A stretch of DNA of 27,464 bases from a virus, in the IMG/VR virus record IMGVR_UViG_3300030098_004416, positions 1 to 27,464 of that record, one strand, 5' to 3'. Shown here one piece after another: positions 7,841-12,658 of this stretch (positions are counted from its first letter, which is position 1; each line of letters opens with the position of its first letter). The notes beneath the pieces were generated by a model, which searched no databases, was not told the origin of the DNA, and saw only the letters and a list, made by a program, of their open reading frames with translations. Made by a program: the position numbers and the translations under genes.

Positions 7841-8281
7841 TTAAGATCCAGTAGAAGCACTATATAGATAATTATAGGCCAGAACACTATCAGGAGCGAT
7901 ATCCACATACTCTCCGCAGTCCACAGCTTGACCCGTTTCAAGGTCCGTCCAGTGGTCCGTTTCGTAGGGGTTATAGTAACATTCACCCCATCTAAAATCA
8001 AGCATACCTTTCCAAGATTCTTTCGCATCAACCACAAACCCTTCAATAAAAGCGTGGACGTTCTTTTTTTCCTCTTTTCGGACTCGTTCTTGCCCTTTTG
8101 GGTTTACGATTGTTTTAAAATCCCGCAACACTACGTTGTCGGCGTGGCACTTGACGAGACCGCCTTGCTGAACACTCAGACACCCTTTGTGGAGATTGCG
8201 ATACACGCGGACCTTTTTGGCAGGATCAATATGATCCAAAACTTCTCGACTAACTTCCACTCGCGGTTTTTTGTTGCTCAT
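7841..8281 (-). CDS. conserved phage hypothetical protein, 146 aa
   Basis: Start placed at ATG 8281 (MSNKKPRVEVS). A longer frame begins at ATG 8323, but that ATG lies inside the -10 hexamer of promoter 8322-8349, so the transcript would start after it. Contains VYRNLHKGCLSVQQ, HADNVVLRDF and RKEEKKNVHAF, a pattern I recall in uncharacterised phage proteins. C-terminal part is acidic and aromatic. Function unknown. Confidence 0.8.
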   Translation of the reverse strand: MSNKKPRVEVSREVLDHIDPAKKVRVYRNLHKGCLSVQQGGLVKCHADNVVLRDFKTIVNPKGQERVRKEEKKNVHAFIEGFVVDAKESWKGMLDFRWGECYYNPYETDHWTDLETGQAVDCGEYVDIAPDSVLAYNYLYSASTGS

Positions 8282-8321
8282 TCCAAGTGCCTTTTGAAAA
8301 ACTTTGTTGCTGTCTATTGCC

Positions 8322-8349
8322 ATTATACCATCCGTGTACTGAATGTCAA
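8322..8349 (-). promoter_or_regulatory. sigma-70 promoter
   Basis: -35 TTGACA (8344-8349), 16-nt spacer without CGATA, -10 TATAAT (8322-8327). Reads the four-gene unit 8281-7109. Confidence 0.85.
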
Positions 8350-8364
8350 GAATAAAACTTGCCC

Positions 8365-8444
8365 CTTATACTCTCTCCCCTTGCGGGGTTGTAGGCGTGG
8401 ACATTTGACGCCTCGTTGTTCAGTCTTTCGACCTACAGTATAAG
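8365..8444 (-). ncRNA. structured RNA candidate with GNRA tetraloops, 80 nt
   Basis: On the minus strand a perfect 8-bp closing stem CTTATACT/AGTATAAG (8437-8444 with 8365-8372) encloses three hairpins in order: GTC-GAAA-GAC, AGGCGT-N8-ACGCCT and CCCC-GCAA-GGGG. Two loops are GNRA tetraloops, which favour RNA function. It begins one base after the tRNA-like RNA and shares its promoter (8625-8652). No open reading frame. No known RNA family recognised. Confidence 0.65.
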
Positions 8445-8445
8445 C

Positions 8446-8606
8446 TAACGGTGGCGGGATTCGAACCCGCATCTCTCATTCAACCGACTCTAGAGCCGGT
8501 TGTGACCACTCAACGGTTGATTAATCCGCATCGTTGCGATTGTCGGGGTAATCACTCCCATCAGATCGCTGGTCACTGAGCGTGTGAACCTTTCCACCAC
8601 ACCGCC
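8446..8606 (-). ncRNA. tRNA-like RNA with branched insertion
   Basis: A canonical T-arm GCGGGTTCGAATCCCGC is followed by CACCGTT and discriminator A. The 5' GGCGGTG at 8606-8600 can pair with CACCGTT (two G-U), and a Leu-like D-arm GTG-GAAAGGTTCA-CAC follows. A 75-nt insertion (8502-8576) closed by GTGACCA/TGGTCAC then intervenes before an anticodon-like arm ACCGG/TCGGT with an eight-base loop CTCTAGAG. An anticodon here would be CUA or a four-base CUAG. Alternative: a 73-nt degenerate tRNA starting at 8518 with mismatches in the acceptor. No CCA. It starts about 12 nt after its predicted transcript start. Confidence 0.6.
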
Positions 8607-8624: not shown

Positions 8625-8652
8625 ATTATACTTTATTATCGTCATTTGTCAA
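8625..8652 (-). promoter_or_regulatory. sigma-70 promoter for the RNA-only unit
   Basis: -35 TTGACA (8647-8652), 16-nt spacer with CGATA, -10 TATAAT (8625-8630). The unit downstream contains only the tRNA-like RNA and the 80-nt structured RNA. Confidence 0.88.
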
Positions 8653-8691
8653 GCAAAAACTTTACCGCATTCTGCCGCTTTTTTGAAATTG

Positions 8692-8773
8692 GCGTAAGTC
8701 GTTACTCGTAAAGGGTTTACGATTCGCGGGGCTGCCCCGCCCGACGTAAGTTGTTGTCAGGCAAGGACTTACG
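8692..8773 (-). repeat. three-arm palindromic element, copy 3
   Basis: CGTAAGTCGTTAC.../GGGTTTACG, central CGGGGCTGCCCCG, CGTAAGTTG.../AAGGACTTACG. Between the pseudoknot terminator region and promoter 8625-8652. Confidence 0.88.
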
Positions 8774-9224: not shown

Positions 9225-10016
9225 CTATTTTACCATAAGTTTCTCCGTTGTCAATCTCTTTTTGCGGGAATAGGAGCCTTTTCCCTTCAATGCTTTCAAC
9301 GCTTCCGATGCTTCCGATCCCTTTGGTTGTGTGCCATGAATCAGCAACGCGAAATCCTGATTTTTCAAGCTAGGTCGTGCCGCATGGGAATCGTCATGGT
9401 CGATATCAAGATCGCCCGCTTCGGCTTCACTGAATACAACCTTTGCAGATCGCAAACCGTGTTCCGCAATCATGTCGTCATTGCGTCCACCATAACTCGC
9501 AGTCAGTACAAAGTTGTCCAGATTGTCAGTGTACTCGCGGTATTCTGTCCAGTAGGGAAGCGACTTCGTGTAAGCATAGAACAATCGGTCAGTGTGCATC
9601 ATTGCCATATTGATCCACGCGAACATATAATCAGAACTAAAGAAATCGCCAGCAACGTGAATTCGGCAGATGCCGAGATTATCGGGCATAGACTGATTCA
9701 GTTCGTGAATCATGTCGTTAAGATGCAAACCACGCAACGTATCAAAATTGTGCTTGCGTGAATTATATACGTTGGTATACTGTACTTCCTGCGATGCGGA
9801 GAAGCAGCGGAATTGCGTATGCGGACCATCTTTGATAGTGCGTTTACCGGATTCGGAAACGACGGCTTTGGAAAGGCAGTCATGAGCAAACGGGCAAGAA
9901 TAACCGGAAAGCAAATCGAGCGAGTAAATCTTACGCTTGTGATCGAGAAACGGCTTCAGCTCATCGACCTGTTTGAGGGCTTCGGTTTTGGCGTTTGCGT
10001 TTGAGAACTTCAGCAT
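9225..10016 (-). CDS. Cys-containing phage protein, possibly Gp88-like, 263 aa
   Basis: Begins MLKFSNANAKTEALK. SLDLLSGYSCPFAHDC (residues about 32-47) with Cys spaced C-x5-C, then FRCFSASQEVQYTNVY, then RIHVAGDFFSSDYMFAWI (about 117-134) and FYAYTKSLPYW. This arrangement recalls the phage Gp88-type family (Cys-rich N-terminus followed by a conserved GDF motif); that assignment is from memory and uncertain. Biochemical role unknown. Single gene from promoter 10,054-10,081. Its last codons and TAG stop contain the -10 box of promoter 9227-9254. C-terminal tail is very basic (KGKGSYSRKKRL). Confidence 0.75.
   Translation of the reverse strand: MLKFSNANAKTEALKQVDELKPFLDHKRKIYSLDLLSGYSCPFAHDCLSKAVVSESGKRTIKDGPHTQFRCFSASQEVQYTNVYNSRKHNFDTLRGLHLNDMIHELNQSMPDNLGICRIHVAGDFFSSDYMFAWINMAMMHTDRLFYAYTKSLPYWTEYREYTDNLDNFVLTASYGGRNDDMIAEHGLRSAKVVFSEAEAGDLDIDHDDSHAARPSLKNQDFALLIHGTQPKGSEASEALKALKGKGSYSRKKRLTTEKLMVK
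9227..9254 (-). promoter_or_regulatory. sigma-70 promoter inside a coding end
   Basis: -35 TTGACA (9249-9254), 16-nt spacer without CGATA, -10 TAAAAT (9227-9232). It lies entirely within the last ten codons of the gene at 9225-10,016. Confidence 0.75.
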
Positions 10017-12055: not shown

Positions 12056-12571
12056 CTAGACTTGATAAGACTTCACGCCAATTTCTTGAGCGGCTTCAAC
12101 GTTTGCCGTGTCATCATCATAGAAATAGATTTTATCATACGATTCCATGATTGTCAACAGCACTTTTCGTTTATTTCGGGAAATGTCAGAACCTGAATCG
12201 CCCACACAATGAACGGCAGTCGCTTCGATGCCAAACTGATTCAAAAATCCCTGAATCGCATCAGCAATAGAATTACTGCGAGCAGTCAGAATAAACAGGT
12301 TATGACCCTCTCTGTAAATCTCTTGAGCGAGTTCGATCAATTTGGTTGGCTTGCCATTAAGAATGAACTCGGGATTTTTAAACTGAGAGAAATCGAATTC
12401 CTCATCCTTTTGCAATTCGTAGGTGTTGAACTCAGCGGGTGTTAACCGCTTGGCCACCTTGCGAGTAGCGCCACCAAAATAACCTTCACGATTAATTGGA
12501 GCAAGTACCAGAACGCAAGCGTCAGTCATCGCCAGAGTGTCATCAAAGTCAAAAACGAATGCTTTTCTCAT
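12056..12571 (-). CDS. HAD-superfamily phosphatase, 171 aa
   Basis: Begins MRKAFVFDFDDTLAMTD. Motif I DFDDT with D8 and D10 as nucleophile and acid/base; motif II ILTARSN near residue 95; a conserved Lys in NKRKVL; motif III FYDDDTANVEAA near the C-terminus. Enzymes of this subclass hydrolyse phosphate esters, in phages often 5'-nucleotides or nucleic-acid ends, so a nucleotide or repair role is plausible. ATG 12,583 (four codons earlier) would sit at the predicted transcript start, so 12,571 is preferred, though neither has a good ribosome site. Confidence 0.84.
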   Translation of the reverse strand: MRKAFVFDFDDTLAMTDACVLVLAPINREGYFGGATRKVAKRLTPAEFNTYELQKDEEFDFSQFKNPEFILNGKPTKLIELAQEIYREGHNLFILTARSNSIADAIQGFLNQFGIEATAVHCVGDSGSDISRNKRKVLLTIMESYDKIYFYDDDTANVEAAQEIGVKSYQV

Positions 12572-12589
12572 GTTGTTTTTCATACGGGT

Positions 12590-12618
12590 ATTATATAGTA
12601 TATATCGGCATTTTGCAA
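12590..12618 (-). promoter_or_regulatory. sigma-70 promoter for HAD gene
   Basis: -35 TTGCAA (12,613-12,618), 17-nt spacer with CGATA, -10 TATAAT (12,590-12,595). Confidence 0.82.
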
Positions 12619-12658
12619 CCCCAATCGCCACCTATTCGGGAAAGTTTTTAAAAGTTGT

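Follow-up and report, generated by a model that had tools for sequence, protein, structure and literature searches.

The 27,464 nt window analysed here (the whole stretch of DNA under study) is part of a 40,790 bp IMG/VR record from an uncultivated, tailed virus of bacteria and carries a 161 nt RNA gene with its own promoter, the anatomy of a tRNA body and no anticodon arm, and a syntenic relative encodes an RNA of similar predicted layout. We consider it fairly probable that this is a processed, separately transcribed, tRNA-bodied non-coding RNA of a tailed phage, in which the insert would act as the effector. With tRNA-like ends and a branched 98 nt domain replacing the codon-reading loop, it probably belongs not with the working tRNAs but with the stable non-coding RNAs first known from phage T4. 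Phage RNAs with tRNA ends are already known as a kind, what is new is the intact tRNA body with a branched domain substituting for its anticodon loop, and the recurrence of tRNA-ended RNAs across a phage group.

The RNA occupies the positions given by the earlier note, which named no strand, and is read from 8606 to 8446 on the minus strand (Table 1). Its parts follow in the order GGCGGTG, TG, D-arm, G, CTCA, 98 nt, TGAG, AGAT, T-arm, CACCGTT, A. The acceptor halves pair as had been claimed (GGCGGTG/CACCGTT, 7/7, with two G-U pairs at the tip), and the T-arm (GCGGG-TTCGAAT-CCCGC) is indeed perfect. Acceptor stem, D-arm and T-arm are accompanied by the canonical tertiary partners of a tRNA, which can be read from the sequence as U8-A14, A15-U48, G18-U55, G19-C56, G26-A44 and U54-A58, whereas an anticodon arm with a 7 nt loop and U33 is absent, 98 nt standing in the place of the loop. 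The D-arm resembles the 5′ half of a tRNA-Leu when compared with the tRNA-Leu encoded in the window itself (2802-2884), with which the RNA has a D-arm, G26 and A73 in common; unlike that tRNA, it has no anticodon loop, a variable region of 4 nt and the 98 nt insert. The element is preceded, at a distance of 18 nt, by a sigma-70 type promoter, and the gene next after it is served by another promoter with 12/12 consensus matches (8349-8322), we therefore regard the RNA as its own transcription unit.

Table 1. Coordinates of the window RNA, its promoter and its parts, and of other tRNA-ended RNAs and candidates in the phage group.
Feature	Location	Strand	Description
tRNA-bodied RNA	8446-8606	-	161 nt; from sequence, fold and T-arm survey
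Sigma-70 type promoter	8625-8652	-	TTGACA (8652-8647), 16 nt, TATAAT (8630-8625); 12/12 consensus matches
Acceptor stem, 5′ half	8600-8606	-	GGCGGTG; 7/7 pairs with 8447-8453, two G-U
D-arm	8582-8597	-	GTG/CAC stem; A14 and G18G19 in the loop (GAAAGGTTCA); read from sequence
Anticodon stem, 5′ strand	8577-8580	-	CTCA; pairs with TGAG in MFE fold
Insert domain I	8502-8576	-	Branched 75 nt domain with GTGACCA/TGGTCAC as closing helix; from fold
Insert domain II	8482-8501	-	Hairpin AACCGGCT-CTAG-AGTCGGTT; 8 bp stem and tetraloop, MFE and centroid alike
Anticodon stem, 3′ strand	8475-8478	-	TGAG; from MFE fold; TGAATGAGAG found again ahead of T-arm-like sequence in L105
T-arm	8454-8470	-	GCGGG-TTCGAAT-CCCGC; from sequence and T-arm survey
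Acceptor stem, 3′ half	8446-8453	-	CACCGTT and discriminator A73; CCA not encoded; from sequence
Family A copy	L094:9753-9907		
Family A copy	L105:186-339	-	
Family A copy	L132:373-526		
Family A copy	L133:122-277	-	
Family A copy	L202:2825-2976	-	
Family A copy	L164:12636-12794		
Further tRNA-ended RNA (G004)	L185:17155-17286		132 nt; perfect acceptor and T-arm, promoter just upstream, by gp88-like gene
Candidate (G017)	L123:121-253	-	133 nt; 7 bp acceptor, perfect T-arm; T-arm lost in MFE fold

In the MFE fold, the 98 nt in place of the anticodon loop form the GTGACCA/TGGTCAC domain and the CTAG-tetraloop hairpin. CTCA pairs with TGAG, the 5′ strand following the D-stem GTG/CAC and G26 and the 3′ strand ending up 4 nt before the T-stem, so that the 75 nt block and the CTAG hairpin both come to lie inside the anticodon stem. 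The block and its closing helix are as the earlier note described them, but the note had set the insert between the D and anticodon arms, whereas in the MFE fold CTCA/TGAG encloses block and hairpin together. Because CTCA/TGAG is short (4 bp), this placement rests on the fold together with good tRNA spacing (G26 and the 4 nt variable region). The supposed eight-base anticodon loop with CTAG at its centre folds instead into a tetraloop, as CTCTAGAG is its own reverse complement and two extra pairs close CTAG on an 8 bp stem; for the inner branching of domain I, MFE and centroid disagree. The folding energy of the whole RNA is modestly low (z = -1.9 against shuffles). One true copy of the exact RNA is known, and its anatomy comes from predicted folds and metagenome assemblies. 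Its exact hairpin pattern found no match in viral contigs, BLAST against phages returned just short T-arm matches to unrelated tRNAs, Rfam gave no match at relaxed E-values, and the phage's own 40.8 kb record holds no antisense complement longer than 12 nt.

Relatives found through terminase and gene-neighbour searches belong to a large group of uncultivated phages, and most members that share this neighbourhood carry no such RNA in the slot. G030 (L152) is the closest syntenic relative. Its downstream gene shares 84% amino acid identity with that of the window, and the promoter block is kept (identity about 85-90% by eye), followed by a 158 nt stretch (AAGACGG...CCGTCTT) quite unlike the window RNA in sequence. 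In the unconstrained MFE fold of this stretch, a 7 bp closing stem and 2 nt lead into a D-like arm, two domains follow, and a 6 bp hairpin abuts the closing stem; the 158 nt contain no TTCRA loop and so no T-loop. Folding reaches z = -3.0, a value as low as this being found in 1 of 300 shuffles, whilst a 7 bp closing stem arose by chance in 61 of 2000 shuffles (3%) and, given the stem, a layout with D-like and T-like hairpins in 42 of 600 (7%). The two layouts are similar, not identical, as the two domains of the window RNA are enclosed by a further stem. We read the G030 RNA as a probable diverged relative of the window RNA, on the strength of synteny, promoter identity and predicted fold in a comparison chosen after the fact. 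As the RNA in this slot has no T-loop, it is the layout, and not a tRNA, that seems to be kept.

Neither default ARAGORN nor the Rfam tRNA model (RF00005) calls the window RNA, and among the four readings offered by the earlier note (suppressor or frameshifting tRNA, spliced tRNA, tRNA mimic) that of a tRNA mimic fits best. It is unlikely that we are looking at a tRNA, perhaps a tRNA-Leu, which was broken by an insertion and is decaying without function. Such a history would agree with the tRNA-Leu-like 5′ half, the two G-U pairs at the acceptor tip, a G31-A39 mismatch and the absence of the gene from other syntenic relatives, but the acceptor, D, T and insert stems are intact, the promoter is perfect, and a promoter and similar layout are kept in G030. 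Removal of the 75 nt block, moreover, leaves 8 nt from the D-stem to the anticodon stem and 12 nt ahead of the T-stem, hence no normal tRNA is recovered by joining its flanks. The earlier note had named a normal tRNA at this place in homologous phages, with the present copy decayed, as a refutation; the nearest normal tRNA ahead of this downstream gene, a tRNA-Asp in G002, is unrelated in sequence and follows a different gene there.

Quite improbable, too, is a tRNA with an intron of about 90 nt in the anticodon loop that is spliced to a normal tRNA. The insert sits exactly at the tRNA intron position, and ARAGORN, run as the earlier note had proposed, does report the RNA once introns are allowed, as a tRNA-Val(cac) with a 69 nt intron; the anticodon stem of this call is poorly paired, and it was rejected. 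Splicing is disfavoured because no junction yields a normal 17 nt anticodon arm (5+7+5) with U33, which appears only with a 4 bp stem, at several junctions. Rfam holds no intron match, the RNA at this slot in G030 is without a T-loop, and the insert is below the size of group I and II introns.

A bacterial Y RNA of YrlA type or a reduced tmRNA is very unlikely. Both classes are tRNA mimics, relatives of the phage have true tmRNA genes, and Y RNAs have been reported from mycobacteriophages according to a source cited in PMC12282133, but there is no Rfam match to YrlA (RF02553) or tmRNA, a D-stem is present, no credible tag frame is found, and the 10 records searched, possibly fragments, contain no TROVE/Ro protein. 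ARAGORN's tmRNA candidates inside the RNA were discarded, having no credible tag. An amber-suppressor or four-base-decoding (frameshifting) tRNA with anticodon CTA or CTAG, suggested by the CTAG at a hairpin tip ahead of the T-arm, is scarcely credible, since no anticodon arm remains (the 4 nt CTAG loop caps an 8 bp stem inside another stem, preceded by 8 nt and the 75 nt domain and followed by 12 nt) and UAG is an ordinary stop, with TAG ending 9 of the 26 genes whose stop is read in the window, the terminase gene included.

A survey of the phage group (2.1 Mb) for strict T-arms outside ARAGORN tRNA and tmRNA calls returned 14, against 0 in a reversed-sequence control, which argues that the window element is more than chance; some of the 14 are tmRNA ends, and the window RNA is one of few with a full acceptor partner and an upstream promoter. 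A second slot, beside a gp88-like gene in six relatives, carries a tRNA-ended RNA of ~155 nt which we refer to as family A. Five copies (L094/L131, L105, L132, L133 and L202) were aligned, and the sixth (L164, in G002) matches less well and has an altered T-loop. In the five-copy alignment 92% of cells pair and 8 of 26 pairs show changes in both partners, a figure reached by 0 of 500 shuffles and a signal destroyed by sliding the partners. The L202 copy has a different interior in the same framework. Family A often has its own promoter, its 3′ GCCA is mostly encoded, and it has no match in Rfam. Like the window RNA, it occurs in this phage group with tRNA-type ends and an anticodon stem around a variable interior, but in place of a normal elbow its D-loop is paired to sequence ahead of the T-arm. 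The window RNA is not among the matches of the family A covariance model (R1) at E-values up to 5, the two are therefore separate kinds, alike in design. A third RNA with tRNA ends, preceded by a promoter, occurs in G004 (L185, Table 1). A pattern of TGAATGAGAG plus T-arm gave one real match, in L105, where T-arm-like sequence, perhaps of a truncated copy, stands without 5′ acceptor or D-arm; a match in L139 is coding sequence and was rejected. T-arm matches in L108, L112, L116 and L124 were set aside as tmRNA 3′ ends (L108 and L124 by ARAGORN, the others by eye). In L108, L124 and L130, ARAGORN predicts tmRNA genes, each with a tag peptide of its own; the L130 gene is called as permuted.

The best precedent is RNA C of phage T4 (rnaC, species 1 RNA), a 139 nt RNA which adjoins the tRNA genes, is expressed late and has no known role (PMC9697503, PMC3014915), as is likewise the case for RNA D (PMC3014915, PMC9697503); a change in the rnaD region was seen in an evolution experiment with a T4-like phage (PMC12685909). 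In our analysis, T4 RNA C runs through a long branched helix and a hairpin into a perfect T-arm (CCGGG-TTCGAAT-CCCGG), and it has no match in Rfam, the tRNA model included. Both it and the window RNA are branched RNAs of 120-160 nt from tailed phages and carry a perfect T-arm of tRNA type at the 3′ end. However, T4 RNA C has no clear D-arm and no full 7 bp acceptor and lies in a tRNA array, whereas the window RNA has an acceptor, D- and T-arm and its own promoter; no sequence relation is shown. In the literature searched, with most subscription journals outside the search, no such RNAs are described beyond T4 RNA C and D and the Y RNAs.

If the window RNA is a processed, tRNA-bodied RNA, transcription from its own promoter would begin about 11 nt ahead of the tRNA-like 5′ end, and host RNase P, 3′ maturation and CCA-adding enzymes would presumably trim it by way of the tRNA body. 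These trimming steps follow from the known needs of RNase P and the CCA-adding enzymes. Its production would resemble the presumed making of T4 RNA C, a stable RNA whose 3′ end is of tRNA type. The body would protect the RNA as it does a tRNA, and the function would lie in the 98 nt branched domain, for which a protein or RNA bound during infection is the most likely partner. The RNA could even be charged, a guess prompted by A73 and the tRNA-Leu-like 5′ half. In engineered 'tRNA scaffold' RNAs, a foreign RNA is stabilised by a tRNA whose anticodon loop it replaces; those are man-made, by a technique present in the literature (e.g. PMC3753655), and the window RNA would be a natural case. We suggest, tentatively, that in these phages the tRNA body may be a natural scaffold on which effector RNAs change fast: processing and stability would stay with the ends, whilst the domain standing in for the anticodon loop is swapped, perhaps to act as a decoy for tRNA-targeting enzymes or defences of the host. 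Stable tRNA-ended phage RNAs date back to T4 RNA C and D and still lack an assigned function, and their recurrence at fixed slots in one phage group, with a tRNA-like layout kept and the interior changing, gives a comparative handle on this old question. Standard tRNA finders miss such RNAs.

The genes on either side (7841-8323 and 9225-10016) match mycobacteriophage L5 gp82 (PF25735) and GP88 (PF17338). The former probably starts further in, at M15, as the -10 box TATAAT of the promoter at 8322-8349 (minus strand) overlaps the ATG at 8323; its homologues align from about residue 16. A related terminase occurs on one 7 kb contig of a Flavobacteriales MAG, too weak a link for naming a host. The minus-strand gene at 12056-12631 encodes a HAD phosphatase-like protein which matches the polynucleotide kinase family phrog_415, a possible link to RNA repair. 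A further branched fold, closed by CTTATACT/AGTATAAG, is predicted in the ~100 nt past the element (8350-8445, minus strand) and is absent in G030. Inverted intergenic sequences of the form CGTAAGTCCTT...AACTTACG occur at 8680-8760 and at many loci across the phage group.
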